Of a DNA stretch of 64,000 bases, positions 39,944-43,781 are shown one piece after another. The notes beneath the pieces are model-generated. The model had not been told where the DNA came from and did not search any database. It worked only from the letters and a program-made list of their open reading frames with translations. This stretch comes from Armatimonadota bacterium (GTDB lineage Bacteria > Armatimonadota > Chthonomonadetes > Chthonomonadales > CAJBBX01), in NCBI GenBank assembly GCA_026392115.1, contig JAPLCQ010000064.1:1-64000 (forward strand), written 5' to 3'. Each line of letters begins with the position of its first letter. Positions within the stretch are counted from its first letter, which is position 1. Both the position numbers and the translations under genes were made by a program.

Positions 39944-40021
39944 GTATCGAAACCACGCCGCGGGCCTTTTCCCCAGATAACCTCCCTAACCGACGCGGCG
40001 TGCTGCAACCGGACCGCTTTG

Positions 40022-40030
40022 TGGTACTAT
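40022..40030 (+). promoter_or_regulatory. Extended -10 promoter for the tandem leader RNA
   Basis: TG (40022-40023), one base, then TACTAT (40025-40030) is an extended -10 element. No good -35 box is visible upstream, which extended -10 promoters do not need. Transcription would start near 40036-40038, exactly at the 5' side of the first structured element. Confidence 0.5.
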
Positions 40031-40032
40031 AT

Positions 40033-40111
40033 GGGTGCATCCAGAGAGGCCCGCAAGGGTCCAGCAACCGGGTTGGAGACACCACGGTGCTACGAGGCGC
40101 AGCCTCGATGC
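40033..40111 (+). promoter_or_regulatory. S-box-like (SAM-I/SAM-IV clan) leader element
   Basis: P1 pairs GCATC (40037-40041) with GATGC (40107-40111). Just inside lie ATCCAGAGAGG, AGCAACC (40063-40069) and GGTGCTA (40086-40092), the conserved core words of SAM-I RNAs, and a 6-bp hairpin CGAGGC/GCCTCG (40093-40107) takes the P4 position. The P2 arm is short and lacks the kink-turn and pseudoknot of a full S-box, so this could be a SAM-I/IV variant or a degenerate copy. An intrinsic terminator follows at 40146, giving a transcriptional OFF-switch layout. Ligand identity is inferred. Confidence 0.55.
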
Positions 40112-40145: not shown

Positions 40146-40178
40146 GCCACGGTCGCGGGTGCGACGGTGGCTTTTTTT
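40146..40178 (+). terminator. Intrinsic terminator within the leader RNA
   Basis: GCCACGGTCGC (40146-40156), a 4-base loop, and GCGACGGTGGC (40161-40171) form an 11-position stem with one central mismatch. Seven consecutive T residues follow (40172-40178). It lies after the first S-box-like element and before the second, so transcripts that reach the YbjN gene from the upstream promoter must read through it. Confidence 0.88.
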
Positions 40179-40187
40179 GTGTCGGAA

Positions 40188-40292
40188 CCTATCCAGAGTG
40201 GCGCGAGGGCACGGCCCGATGACCGCCCGGCAACCAGGCTCCCCGTGGGCCACGGTGCCAAGTCCGTCCCCCTGATGAGGGGGATAGATAGG
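40188..40292 (+). promoter_or_regulatory. SAM-I (S-box) riboswitch
   Basis: P1 is CCTATC (40188-40193) with GATAGG (40287-40292). The core shows CCAGAGTGG, GAGGGCACGGCCC (pseudoknot region), GATGA kink-turn, CCGGCAACC, and GGTGCCAAGTCC; P4 is CCCCC/GGGGG (40268-40272 / 40279-40283). All main SAM-I features are present. The 3' strand of P1 overlaps the AGGAG ribosome site (40290-40294) of the 37-codon ORF starting at 40301. Bound S-adenosylmethionine should therefore lock P1 and hide the ribosome site: translational OFF control. Confidence 0.93.
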
Positions 40293-40300
40293 AGAGAACG

Positions 40301-40414
40301 ATGCATCACGCAACGGTGTACCCGGCCCGCCGAGGCCTTGCCGCTCCCGGTCCGACGCGCCACCGGCGCCGTCTTGGTCTGGCGCGAACCATCCACGAAG
40401 GCGGCCCACGATGA
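40301..40414 (+). CDS. 37-codon leader ORF coupled to the YbjN gene
   Basis: ATG 40301 lies 6 bases after AGGAG and directly follows the SAM-I riboswitch. The 37-residue product starts MHHATVYPARR, is rich in Arg/Pro/Gly and resembles no domain. Its TGA (40412-40414) overlaps the YbjN start as ATGA. The riboswitch controls this ribosome site, and coupling would pass control on to the YbjN gene, which has no good site of its own. Whether the peptide itself has a function is unknown. Confidence 0.6.
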   Translation: MHHATVYPARRGLAAPGPTRHRRRLGLARTIHEGGPR

Positions 40415-40965
40415 GCACGACCCTCAAGAAGGTCGTCCGCCTGCTGTCCGAAGCCGGGTGGCACGCCTACACTTCCGGCGACGACACGGCGGTCATCATG
40501 ACGGTGTGCGGCGACAGGACGCAGCCGGTCGTGGCCGAGCTCCACGAGGATGGCAGGTACCTCCGCTTCATCGCCCGGTGGTTCATGGTCCTGCCTGAGG
40601 GCGACAAGCGGGAGGCGCTGCTGGCCAAGCTGCTGCAGCGGAACTGCCAGCTGAAGCTCCTGAAGTTCGGCCTGGACCCCAGAGACGGCGAGGTCACGGC
40701 CGAGGTCTCGCTGCCCCTCATGGGAGGCAAACTGCGACCGGACCAGCTGAACCGCGTCCTCTGGACCATGAACGAGGTCCTGCCCGAGCAGCGCGCCACG
40801 CTGCTGGAGTTCCTCGAGACCGGCGTCGACCGGCGCGAGGAGCAGAAGAGCATGGACGACACGGTGCGCAAGCTGCTCGAGGCCGGCCCGGCCGGCGACG
40901 AGGACGCCGGCGCCGACGAGTTGATCGACCTGTCGGCGCTGCCCGACCAGCCGGCCGACGACTAG
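40411..40965 (+). CDS. YbjN-domain protein under SAM-riboswitch control
   Basis: The 184-residue protein shows the YbjN-like fold pattern: LKKVVRLLSEAGWHAYTSGDD, then YLRFIARWFMVLPEGDKREALLAKLLQRNCQLKLLKFGLD, then EVTAEVSLPLMGGKLRPDQLNRVLWTMNEV. An acidic tail ends it (about residues 160-184). YbjN domains resemble type III secretion chaperones and are linked to stress responses in E. coli; their action is unknown. The start is the ATG in the ATGA overlap with the leader ORF. The next gene, a SNF2 helicase, has its own S-box, so the two are probably made under the same S-adenosylmethionine condition. Confidence 0.82.
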   Translation: MSTTLKKVVRLLSEAGWHAYTSGDDTAVIMTVCGDRTQPVVAELHEDGRYLRFIARWFMVLPEGDKREALLAKLLQRNCQLKLLKFGLDPRDGEVTAEVSLPLMGGKLRPDQLNRVLWTMNEVLPEQRATLLEFLETGVDRREEQKSMDDTVRKLLEAGPAGDEDAGADELIDLSALPDQPADD

Positions 40966-41046
40966 ACCGAAAGGAGCGACCTGGCAGTCGGACCCCGGCA
41001 TCGCCCGCCGTGCCCGGCGAACCGGGCCCAACCCAAACGAGACGCG

Positions 41047-41149
41047 CCTATCACGAGTGGCGGTAGGGATCCGGCCCTGTGACCGCCCGGCATCCGGGCT
41101 CCCGAGCGAGCCGCGGTGCCCCGTCCGGCCCCGCTGGAGGGGAGATAGG
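41047..41149 (+). promoter_or_regulatory. SAM-I (S-box) riboswitch-like RNA before the helicase gene
   Basis: P1 CCTATC (41047-41052) pairs with GATAGG (41144-41149), identical to the P1 of the element at 40188. P2 closes with GGCGG/CCGCC around GTAGGGATCCGGCCC, and P4 is CCCC/GGGG (41129-41132 / 41139-41142). Two core words differ from consensus: GGCATCC instead of GGCAACC, and GGTGCCCCGTCC instead of GGTGCYAAxTCC. P1 overlaps the AGGGAG ribosome site of the helicase, so translational control is built in. The core changes could alter affinity or ligand. A 6-bp hairpin (41012-41027) lies just upstream. Confidence 0.82.
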
Positions 41150-41158
41150 GAGAGACTG

Positions 41159-42955
41159 ATGCCGAACCACGAGTCCGCCTCCGACCAGGCGTTCGAGCGC
41201 GCCAACCGCATCGCCGCGGGGCTGTTCCCCCACCAGGTCGACGGCGTGGCCTTCCTCATCGGCCGACGCCGCGCCATCCTGGCCGACGACATGGGCCTGG
41301 GCAAGACCCGCCAGGCCATCGTGGCGCTCCGCGAGGCCGCGCCGACGGGGCCCTACCTGGTGGTCTGCCCCGCCTCCGTCAAACGCAACTGGGAGCGGGA
41401 GATCCTGGCCATCGACGCGAAGGCCGACGTCCGCGTGGTGAGCGGCTCCGCCGACGCGGCCACCGGGCCCTGGACCGTCATCAACTACGACATCCTCCAG
41501 GCGCACATCGAGGCTCTGACCCGCGTGCCATGGTCCGGGATCATCTTCGACGAGGCCCACTACCTGCGGAACCACACCAGCCGGCGGAGCCAGATGGGGC
41601 GCCGCCTCGTCTCCGGCGACCGCGCCGGCGGGCCCATGGTGCTCGCGCTCACCGGCACCCCGCTCACCAACCGCCCGCGCGACCTCTTCCCGCTCCTGCA
41701 GCTGATGGACCACCCCATGGGCAAGTCGTTCCTCAGCTTCGCCCGCCGCTACTGCGCGGCATACCAGAACGACTACGGCTGGGTGACCGACGGCGCCTCG
41801 AACCTCGAGGAGCTCTCGGTACAGCTGCACGGCGTCATGCTCCGCCGCACCAAGTCGGAGGTGCTCTTCCTGCCGCCCAAGATCCGCACATGGCTCCCCG
41901 TGGACGTGCCGGACGGCACCGCCACGCAGGAGATGGTCTCGGTGGTGAGCCACCTGATGCAGAGCCAGGCCGGAGGGCAGCGAACCTCGGCGCGGGGCGC
42001 GGGCGGCGATCGCGTGAAGCTCCTCTCGCTGCTCACCAAGGCGCGGCACAAGCTGGCGGCCGCCAAGGTGAAGAGCACGCTGGACCTGGTGGACGGCGCC
42101 GTGGAGCAGGGCGAGAAGGTGATCGTCTTCTCCTGCTTCGACGAGCCGATCCGCAAGATCGCGGAGCACTACAAGGAGGGGGCCGTGCTGCTGACCGGCG
42201 CCACGCCCAGCGGCAAGCGGCAGGAGCTGGTGGACCGGTTCCAGAACGACCCCGCGGTGCGGGTTTTTGCCGCCAACCTCATCGCCGGAGGCATCGGCCT
42301 GAACCTCACGGCGGCGCGGCAGGTGGTCTTCAACGACCTGGACTGGGTGCCGGCCAACCACTGGCAGGCCGAGGACCGCGCCTACCGCATCGGGCAGACC
42401 GGCGCCGTCAACGTCAGCTACCTGGTGGCAGACGGCACGGTGGACCAGTTCGTCCGCAACCTGCTGGAGGTCAAGGCGAAGCTGGTCGACGCGGTGGTGG
42501 AGGGTCAGGCCGGGCAGATCGACGCGGGCAGCGACATCCTGACCGAGCTGGAGCGGCTCATCGGCCTCATGTCGCCCCGGATGGCCGACCTCTCGTCGAA
42601 GGAGATCGACGCCGAGGTGGCGTCGCGGCTTCTGCGCGAGGCGTCGGAGCGGTACCGGCAGGAGCACCCCGAGAGCCCGGCCACGGCGGCCGCCGGAGGC
42701 CCGCGGGAGGGTGCGATCGCCGACGCGCTGGCGGCGCTGGCCCGCGCCCTGGGCGGCCCGCGGCAGTCGCGCTACCGCGTGGTCAGCCGCTCAAAGCCGG
42801 GCAGCTTCTACCAGCTGACGGTGGACGCCGGCGGCGACGTGGACTGCACCTGCCCCGGCTTCGAGTACCGCGGCATGTGCGCCCACTCCCGCGATCTGAA
42901 GACGGCCGTCGCGCGCGGCGGAGCGGTTCCGGCCGCGTACCAGCCGGTGGCGTAG
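41159..42955 (+). CDS. SNF2-family helicase/translocase with C-terminal SWIM zinc finger
   Basis: The 598-residue protein has Walker A LADDMGLGKTRQA (43-50), DEAH box (131-134), a LTGTPLTNRPRDLF motif III region, and a second RecA lobe ending QAEDRAYRIGQTGAVNVSYL. A SWIM finger lies at Cys563, Cys565, Cys574 and His576 (CTCPGFEYRGMCAH). It resembles short SMARCAL1/HepA-like translocases, which remodel DNA, stalled forks or protein-DNA complexes. The start is ATG 41159, 9 bases after the S-box P1. Control by an S-adenosylmethionine riboswitch is highly unusual for this family. The partner YbjN gene lies directly upstream. Confidence 0.92.
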   Translation: MPNHESASDQAFERANRIAAGLFPHQVDGVAFLIGRRRAILADDMGLGKTRQAIVALREAAPTGPYLVVCPASVKRNWEREILAIDAKADVRVVSGSADAATGPWTVINYDILQAHIEALTRVPWSGIIFDEAHYLRNHTSRRSQMGRRLVSGDRAGGPMVLALTGTPLTNRPRDLFPLLQLMDHPMGKSFLSFARRYCAAYQNDYGWVTDGASNLEELSVQLHGVMLRRTKSEVLFLPPKIRTWLPVDVPDGTATQEMVSVVSHLMQSQAGGQRTSARGAGGDRVKLLSLLTKARHKLAAAKVKSTLDLVDGAVEQGEKVIVFSCFDEPIRKIAEHYKEGAVLLTGATPSGKRQELVDRFQNDPAVRVFAANLIAGGIGLNLTAARQVVFNDLDWVPANHWQAEDRAYRIGQTGAVNVSYLVADGTVDQFVRNLLEVKAKLVDAVVEGQAGQIDAGSDILTELERLIGLMSPRMADLSSKEIDAEVASRLLREASERYRQEHPESPATAAAGGPREGAIADALAALARALGGPRQSRYRVVSRSKPGSFYQLTVDAGGDVDCTCPGFEYRGMCAHSRDLKTAVARGGAVPAAYQPVA

Positions 42956-43044
42956 GCGGGTCCGTCCACTGACCCTGCGCTGGTACCATCTGCTCTATAC
43001 CGAGCGGCGTCCCGGCCTCGCCGGGTCCGCGATGGTTGGGACAT

Positions 43045-43160
43045 CGTGGTCGGGGCGGGTTTGAAACCCGCCCCTACGGTGGTGAACGACGCCAATGGCC
43101 CGGTCCGCGATGATTGCGTCCGTCGTGGTAGGGGCGGGTTTCAAACCCGCCCCTACGAAC
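43045..43160. repeat. REPIN A: two REP palindromes in inverted pair
   Basis: REP 1 is a 23-base palindrome (43052-43074) with 11-base arms (GGGGCGGGTTT / AAACCCGCCCC). REP 2 (43128-43156) has perfect 14-base arms ending GTAGGGG and CCCCTAC. They are joined by a ~50-base spacer containing GCCAATGGCCCGGTCCGCGATG. When translated these repeats give the familiar GFKPAPT-type peptide. The gap 42956-43181 holds nothing else. Confidence 0.9.
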
Positions 43161-43181
43161 GGCATCCGGAAGGGGGACACT

Positions 43182-43781
43182 GTGATCCGCCGTGGGGACG
43201 AACACCGTCGCCGGTCGATCCGCCTGAGCGGCTACGACTACACGCAGGCCGGGGCGTACTTTGTCACGATCTGTGCACAGGCTCGCACATGCCTGTTCGG
43301 CGAGGTGGTCGATGGCGTGATGCAGCCAACCGCGGCAGGCGCAACCGTGGAGACGACGTGGCGTTGCCTGTCAGAGCACTATCCGCATGTGGAGTTGGAT
43401 GCGTTTACTGTGATGCCTAATCATGTGCATGGGATCATTATAACTAGGGCGGGTTTGAAACCCGCCCCTACGGTGGTCGGCGGCGCCAACGGCCCGGCCT
43501 GCGATGATTGGGTCGAGACGGGTCTCAAACCCGCCCGGCCCGTCGGCGACCCGACCCGGCATGGGCTACCTGAGATCGTTCGCGCGTTCAAGACATATTC
43601 ATCGCGCAGCATCAACCTGCACAGGAACAGCCCCGGTACGCCGGTGTGGCAACGCAACTACTACGAACACATAATTCGCGACGAGGACTCGCTCAATCGC
43701 GTTCGCGAGTATATCATGGGTAATCCTATGCGATGGCAGTTTGACAATGATAACCCCATCAACTGGGCATCATCCTCGTAG
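43182..43781 (+). CDS. REP-associated tyrosine transposase (RAYT, Y1/IS200-like)
   Basis: The 199-residue protein shows SGYDYTQAGAYFVTICAQ at the N-terminus, the HUH motif in FTVMPNHVHGIII (His81, His83), AFKTYSSRSIN and the tyrosine motif WQRNYYEHIIRDEDSLNRVREYI (Tyr160/161). RAYTs cut single-stranded REP DNA and are thought to spread REPINs. The GTG at 43182 is chosen because AGGGGG precedes it by 5 bases and upstream residues come from REP 2. Residues about 88-120 are encoded by an inserted REPIN, expanding a loop between the HUH strand and the next helix; the frame stays open. REPs flank both ends. Confidence 0.9.
   Translation: MIRRGDEHRRRSIRLSGYDYTQAGAYFVTICAQARTCLFGEVVDGVMQPTAAGATVETTWRCLSEHYPHVELDAFTVMPNHVHGIIITRAGLKPAPTVVGGANGPACDDWVETGLKPARPVGDPTRHGLPEIVRAFKTYSSRSINLHRNSPGTPVWQRNYYEHIIRDEDSLNRVREYIMGNPMRWQFDNDNPINWASSS
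43444..43540. repeat. REPIN B inserted in frame inside the RAYT gene
   Basis: REP 3 (43447-43467) has arms GGGCGGGTTT and AAACCCGCCC; REP 4 (about 43513-43536) is a degenerate GAGACGGGTCTCAAACCCGC copy. The spacer (GGCGCCAACGGCCCGGCCTG and GATGATTG) is clearly homologous to the REPIN A spacer. Together they encode residues about 88-120 of the transposase (AGLKPAPTVVGG and ETGLKPARP). Confidence 0.88.

Follow-up and report, generated by a model that had tools for sequence, protein, structure and literature searches.

Three S-adenosylmethionine (SAM) riboswitch aptamers of two classes precede the genes for a YbjN-family protein and an SNF2-family ATPase in a 64,000-nucleotide stretch of Armatimonadota DNA (the window; contig C116 of a 5.7-Mb draft genome, here G000). 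Using Rfam covariance models, we found a SAM-I/IV aptamer, a SAM-I aptamer and a divergent SAM-I aptamer within 1.1 kb on the + strand (Table 1). The aptamers, their pairing, the positions of the ribosome binding sites, the terminator, the identities of the genes and the conservation of the locus were computed. We think it probable that the locus is one SAM-repressed transcription unit, controlled by three sensors of two classes, that provides an accessory response to low SAM.

SAM riboswitches are usually viewed as housekeeping sensors that report the supply of sulfur amino acids. In this locus, three such riboswitches appear to guard a protein with a chaperone fold and a predicted DNA translocase. 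We consider the regulatory architecture to be new, together with a phylum-level pattern in which SAM-I/IV aptamers appear to govern accessory genes. The genomes compared were draft assemblies, the large censuses used stricter filters, and downstream genes were classified by hand.

Aptamers, pairing and ribosome binding sites

The first-pass annotation of the window described two S-boxes (SAM-I riboswitches) with identical P1 strands, each hiding the ribosome site of the open reading frame (ORF) that follows it, and no methionine or SAM gene behind them. We recovered both boxes with RF00162, their P1 strands (CCTATC/GATAGG) are identical, and the genes behind them encode YbjN and SNF2 proteins. 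The count of two was incomplete, as the upstream SAM-I/IV aptamer and its terminator had been missed. The SAM-I/IV aptamer and the first SAM-I box scored above their gathering thresholds. The second SAM-I box (hereafter the SNF2 box) scored below threshold in the window, and its orthologue in the related genome G001 scored above it (50.6 bits).

Table 1. Features of the locus, with positions in the window
Feature	Positions	Strand	Evidence
Putative promoter, extended -10-like element TGGTACTAT	40015..40036	+	Read from sequence; adjoins 5' side of SAM-I/IV aptamer
SAM-I/IV riboswitch aptamer, RF01725	40032..40145	+	53.3 bits (gathering score 41.1)
Intrinsic terminator hairpin and U tract	about 40146..40178	+	GTCGC/GCGAC stem with flanking pairs; T7 on its 3' side
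SAM-I riboswitch no. 1, RF00162	40186..40294	+	71.5 bits (gathering score 44.4); E 9.7e-15 over the window
Leader ORF, 37 codons	40301..40414	+	Start ATG 40301; stop overlaps ybjN start (ATGA)
YbjN-family protein, 184 amino acids	40411..40965	+	PF10722, E 2.2e-11
SAM-I riboswitch no. 2 (SNF2 box), divergent RF00162, intercistronic	41045..41151	+	41.3 bits (gathering score 44.4); E 1.2e-7 searching the region alone
SNF2-family ATPase, C-terminal SWIM zinc finger, 598 amino acids	41159..42955	+	PF00176, E 2e-31; PF00271, E 4e-12

The SAM-I/IV aptamer is followed by an intrinsic transcription terminator. In the window, the P3 loop of the aptamer pairs with the 3' tail to form the pseudoknot TGGAGAC/GTCTCCA. 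This pseudoknot covaries among 20 copies from the phylum: matched loop-tail pairs scored 6.85, compared to 5.90 for mismatched pairs (standard deviation 0.26), and the maximum of 500 shuffles was 6.63, below the observed value. Directly 3' of the aptamer is a GC-rich hairpin with seven T residues, which is likely its expression platform. A promoter may adjoin the 5' side of the aptamer; a stretch at this site (TTTGTGGTACTATAT) is conserved in G001 and in G002, a third genome of the genus. A promoter scan of the region found no sigma-70 consensus site.

The pairing of the SAM-I boxes is not due to chance. In an alignment of 27 boxes (26 distinct), P1 was 100% paired, and in P1 and the pseudoknot between the P2 loop and J3/4, 4 pairs and 13 cells were doubly changed, compared to 1.6 and 2.6 in shuffles. 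Both the full pairing of P1 and the excess of double changes over shuffles argue against chance. The fourth pair of P1 is U-A in boxes upstream of metK and C-G in the ybjN and snf2 boxes (21 U-A and 5 C-G distinct rows). By this compensated change, GATAAG becomes GATAGG(AG), and the Shine-Dalgarno sequence comes to be part of P1. The two boxes in the window have 4-bp pseudoknots, ACGG/CCGU and CCGG/CCGG; the first pair of that in the ybjN box is A-U, and C-G in most other boxes.

Each SAM-I box in the window is positioned to mask a ribosome binding site, as the first-pass annotation had proposed. The Shine-Dalgarno sequence AGGAG (40290-40294) is inside or directly at the 3' strand of P1 in the first box, and GGGAGAG, before the ATG at 41159, is overlapped by the 3' strand of P1 in the SNF2 box. 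Neither box has a terminator. The only other S-box in G000, a single SAM-I box upstream of metK, has a conventional platform: a terminator with a 5' arm complementary to the 3' strand of P1. We considered duplication of this metK S-box as the origin of the ybjN and snf2 boxes and found it unlikely; P3 (GCCCGGCAACC versus GCCACAACAACC) and P1 are both different.

The SNF2 box is best filed as a divergent SAM-I-like box. The adenine and sulfonium contacts of SAM-I are taken in part from the 2GIS structure. The SAM-contact bases are retained in both boxes and, in the SNF2 box, A6, U7, G11, C44, A45, C47, U57, G58 and U88 of the SAM site are unchanged. Relative to the consensus (conserved bases as listed in PMC3764141), the SNF2 box has the changes A10C, G19U, A46U, A61C and A62C. 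Neither the kink-turn base G19 nor the J3/4 bases A61 and A62 are kept in G000 and G001 (G19U, A61C and A62C in both).

The arrangement resembles known tandems that combine two mechanisms. At the level of sequence, one ORF is preceded first by an aptamer that leads into an intrinsic terminator and then by an aptamer that masks its ribosome site. Terminator first and ribosome site second is the arrangement established for SAM-II/SAM-V tandems (PMC9481103), and those tandems likewise have two classes in one leader (PMC9481103, PMC11508383). Unlike them, the locus described here combines SAM-I/IV with SAM-I, has an extra SAM-I between genes and precedes genes not involved in sulfur or methionine metabolism. 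The tandem combinations named in the available sections of the review are SAM-II/SAM-I/IV, SAM-I/IV/SAM-II and SAM-I doublets (PMC9481103); SAM-I/IV followed by SAM-I was not found among these described tandems, and in the Armatimonadota searched the two classes are side by side only in this genus. The SAM-I boxes share with the S-box regulon (RF00162) the aptamer fold, the SAM-contact bases and the pseudoknot, and differ from it in the occlusion of a Shine-Dalgarno sequence within P1 and in their YbjN and SNF2 targets.

A proposed low-SAM response, its conservation and its rivals

We propose that the three aptamers act as successive gates. When SAM is plentiful, the 5' SAM-I/IV riboswitch would end transcription at the terminator. 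On read-through, the P1 helix of the first SAM-I, stabilized by SAM, would hide the Shine-Dalgarno sequence of the leader ORF, to which ybjN would be coupled. The second, intercistronic SAM-I would likewise hide the Shine-Dalgarno sequence of the SNF2-SWIM translocase gene. A drop in SAM would open all three gates, and the YbjN-type peptide-binding chaperone and the double-stranded-DNA translocase would be made. We infer the ligand, the OFF direction, the presence of all three aptamers on one transcript and the whole physiological role. Expression of the ybjN and snf2 genes at low SAM is a natural and reasonable reading, because the only other S-box of G000 precedes metK and uses a terminator. 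A link to failing methylation or to DNA transactions is an inference.

The 5' part of the locus is conserved in the three species of the genus. G001 has the complete layout. G002 has the SAM-I/IV aptamer, terminator, first SAM-I box, leader ORF and ybjN; a sodium/solute-symporter-like gene (classified by eye) is in place of SNF2, and no SNF2 relative was found in G002 at E 1e-60. Identity to G000 was 96% (G001) and 93% (G002) for the SAM-I/IV aptamer and 98% and 92% for the terminator; with the first SAM-I box included, these elements are 90-98% identical among the three species, and the upstream rhodanese gene is 85-91% identical. Between G000 and G001, the SNF2 gene is 96% identical. The leader ORF is in frame with the ATGA overlap in all three species (37 amino acids in G002 and 26 in G001, a 33-nt length difference), and the overlap suggests translational coupling of the leader ORF to ybjN.

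The ybjN gene has diverged more than its surroundings. Its coding sequence is 52-77% identical among the three species (55-56% between G000 and G001, 75-77% between G000 and G002). At the amino acid level, YbjN of G000 is 36% identical to that of G001 and 59% identical to that of G002, although the flanks are closest between G000 and G001. This combination indicates that the ybjN allele in G001 was exchanged or is evolving fast. In a comparison of window positions 40325-41012 with the G001 locus (L007), the ybjN region appeared replaced or hyper-divergent, with both flanks more than 90% identical. As a conjecture, a 32-nt repeat common to the two SAM-I boxes could serve exchange of ybjN alleles.

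Several observations weigh against control by all three aptamers. Folding of the RNA without ligand gave P1 already formed in most sequences, and folding energies therefore do not predict switching. The SNF2 box has lost bases that support the fold, which may point to weak SAM binding or to decay; in G002 a shortened remnant takes its place. SNF2 and YbjN homologues elsewhere are found without S-boxes, and no wider regulon backs a joint role.

These points bear on an alternative in which only the SAM-I/IV aptamer and the first SAM-I box work, on YbjN, and the SNF2 box is a decaying copy left by a duplication around the ybjN cassette, with SNF2 expression dependent on coupling to ybjN. We regard this alternative as unlikely. 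It fits with the 32-nt stretch, shared by the two boxes at 88% identity with a spacing of 860 nt, and with the lost fold-supporting bases and the score under the gathering threshold. G002, with a box remnant and no SNF2 gene, and G001, in which the ybjN stop codon is inside the SNF2 box, are also as expected from decay. However, the SNF2 box scores above threshold in G001, where it is 94% identical to that of G000, and it keeps all of the listed SAM-contact bases, a perfect 4-bp pseudoknot and the overlap with the Shine-Dalgarno sequence.

The same substitutions could instead mark a SAM-I variant with specificity for another ligand, such as S-adenosylhomocysteine or another adenosyl compound. 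A10C, A46U, A61C and A62C fall at bases that are near-invariant in the other SAM-I boxes of the phylum and are common to two species, and a SAM-I/IV copy in G022 shares C10, with CCCC in J3/4. However, the SAM-site bases are unchanged and the changes are in peripheral tertiary contacts, making a change in ligand very improbable. We give hardly any credence to a mis-assembly or bin contamination that joined methionine riboswitches to unrelated genes. The three genomes are all many-contig drafts, but G001 and, for part of the locus, G002 have the layout on contigs that were assembled separately, and the aptamers are 90-97% identical while the flanks and cargo have clearly diverged, so a single error was not copied from contig to contig. 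Based on the combined evidence, we favor control of the locus by three SAM sensors.

The proteins and their relatives

The identities that the first-pass annotation gave to the two proteins held up. YbjN matched PF10722 with 44.5 bits (cut-off 22), and its AlphaFold model (3-sequence input, predicted local distance difference test score 72, with a disordered C-terminal tail) matched ExsC (3kxy) and Escherichia coli YbjN (6vu7) in Foldseek, with E of about 2e-4 to 5e-4. The model also resembles Erwinia AmyR and type III secretion chaperones. Judging from the model, YbjN has a peptide-binding-chaperone fold.

The SNF2 protein has the SNF2 and Helicase_C domains, and the solved sequence nearest to it is 1z63, an SNF2/Rad54-family helicase. 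The known activity of the SNF2 superfamily is translocation on double-stranded DNA. In 72 homologues, from Poribacteria, Gemmatimonadetes, Planctomycetes, Verrucomicrobia-type and other bacteria, Walker A, DExH, motif VI and the SWIM Cys/His residues are invariant. The SWIM motif, CxCx8CxH, was read from sequence and alignment (invariant in 72/72); Pfam gave no SWIM match on the protein at 0.001.

We rejected a known defence system and an origin from phage or plasmids. Matches to Zorya ZorD, DISARM DrmD and Dpd DpdE covered only the shared ATPase core and were far below NCBIfam cut-offs (for ZorD, 111 bits compared to a cut-off of 1500), and there was no whole-protein match with partner genes. 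YbjN had no match in the phages and plasmids searched. Relatives of SNF2 there are mostly 23-27% identical in viral contigs (best 34%), and at most 39% identical on plasmids among the matches listed.

The wiring of ybjN and snf2 to S-boxes appears to be specific to the genus, and the two genes do not form a widespread system. Outside the genus, two of 39 SNF2-bearing genomes had any SAM-I box. No S-box was found near SNF2 at 79 loci elsewhere (local model, available flanks; a few have less than 200 bases upstream and are uninformative), none of the 79 had a YbjN relative, and YbjN loci of other Armatimonadota had no S-box in the stretches examined. SNF2 of this type was found only in G000 and G001 (40 relatives searched), and clustering of the neighbours of SNF2 homologues gave only lineage-specific neighbours. 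The suggestion in the first-pass annotation of an undescribed two-gene system is thus not sustained: a conserved YbjN-SNF2 module is rejected on these counts, and in G002 the SNF2 gene and the larger part of its box are missing. Homologous loci examined outside the genus are without an S-box, limiting the finding to genus-level wiring.

Upstream of the SNF2 gene is ybjN, and the genes that follow SNF2 encode a Y1 transposase and lipoyl synthase. Two 35-nt palindromic repeats (GGGGCGGGTTTGAAACCCGCCCC), like repetitive extragenic palindromic (REP) elements, are beside the Y1 (IS200-like) transposase gene, 3' of SNF2 (43044-43157, 43095-43781). At seven Poribacteria loci (L026, L027, L041, L045, L056, L063 and L064), a gene resembling D12-type adenine methyltransferases (by eye) is near that for SNF2-SWIM; at L063 the two genes are on opposite strands, 15 bp apart.

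SAM-I and SAM-I/IV sites across the phylum

SAM-I and SAM-I/IV aptamers differed in the genes that they precede among 291 Armatimonadota genomes. We found 58 SAM-I sites in 52 genomes, one in each except for this genus and G058. The inspected sites were mostly upstream of metK, with metY-like and archaeal-type metK genes downstream of others (named by eye from translations). In G058 (C300, L122), a SAM-I box precedes a glycine C-acetyltransferase-like gene (by eye), an unusual S-box target. SAM-I/IV had 24 matches in 18 genomes. The match in G122 coincides with a SAM-I site that precedes an archaeal-type metK; the other 23 had no standard methionine-pathway gene downstream wherever a gene was readable. 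Based on these contexts, we conclude that the SAM-I/IV class in Armatimonadota is, by gene neighbourhood, largely attached to accessory genes.

A notable one among these contexts combines a MoxR-like AAA_5 ATPase with a DUF2201/vWA-type protein, and in most cases a short protein separates the two. It was found in six genomes: G041 (L154), G146 (L226), G198 (L229), G200 (L227), G187 (L219) and G001 (L155); the DUF2201/vWA matches are weak. In G041, G146 and G198, the operon includes its own SAM-synthetase-like gene, a MetK-like paralogue after MoxR/vWA (the MoxR frame is broken in G146). At the site in G000 (C12, L156:14020-14144) orthologous to that of G001, no MoxR frame follows the SAM-I/IV aptamer; the G001 orthologue still precedes the MoxR/vWA operon. 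In G107, two tandem SAM-I/IV aptamers and short ORFs are followed about 1 kb on by a TY-Chap1 (YbjN-like) protein, and in G022 SAM-I/IV precedes a DUF3293 protein. G025 has a SAM-I/IV operon (L159:11761-14255) encoding a fusion of the MetK C-terminal domain and DUF3293; two copies of an uncharacterised 127-128-amino-acid protein flank the fusion. Downstream of the remaining aptamers were uncharacterised proteins or a contig end.

These associations differ from published accounts. SAM-I/IV variants (RF01725) were described as typically found in metagenomes, with no gene context in the main text (Weinberg et al. 2010, PMC2864571). Our copies match the covariance model, and the P3-loop/tail pseudoknot recurs across the phylum; unlike in that account, they are tied to YbjN in the window and to MoxR/vWA, MetK-like and DUF3293 genes in relatives. 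The MoxR-like ATPase and vWA/DUF2201 pairs resemble MoxR-vWA conflict systems (PMC7159879), and a YbjN-like TY-Chap1 protein is likewise found behind SAM-I/IV in G107. Unlike the conflict systems, the window has neither MoxR nor vWA, and no effector domain was identified. The words riboswitch and YbjN are absent from the text on these systems (PMC7159879). We found no published description of a SAM-I/IV aptamer with a MoxR-like/DUF2201-vWA operon, and an open-access literature search found no SAM riboswitch linked to YbjN, MoxR or SNF2.

The presence of SAM-I/IV aptamers, in other lineages, before genes of the MoxR/vWA, MetK-like and YbjN-like kinds provides new, indirect support for the low-SAM idea. 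If SAM binding is true, it would provide a handle on the roles of the YbjN-family, SNF2-SWIM and MoxR-vWA proteins, as products wanted once SAM is exhausted. A bolder version, which we consider doubtful, is a low-SAM alarm regulon in Armatimonadota and some Gemmatimonadota, in which SAM-I/IV and SAM-I switch on protein-remodelling or DNA-translocating modules (YbjN/TY-Chap, SNF2-SWIM, and MoxR-vWA with a MetK-like enzyme) and not methionine synthesis; a sudden drop in SAM would perhaps signal attack, for example by SAM-consuming phage enzymes.

We also found SAM-I/IV aptamers in two other phyla. One genome sampled from the phylum of Roseisolibacter (Gemmatimonadota), G386, has two tandem SAM-I/IV aptamers (C5:24660-24979; L230/L232) upstream of a MoxR-like ATPase. 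Matches in Planctomycetota (the phylum of G070) were weaker and mostly before short uncharacterised ORFs. At four of these loci (L238, L240, L242 and L246), the match precedes a recurring protein of ~100 amino acids (HHLWxNGRLWWIAFT...LGTxDxxLARxRRD) that resembles the Arm-type DNA-binding domain of integrases; at L246, a metY-like gene is next.

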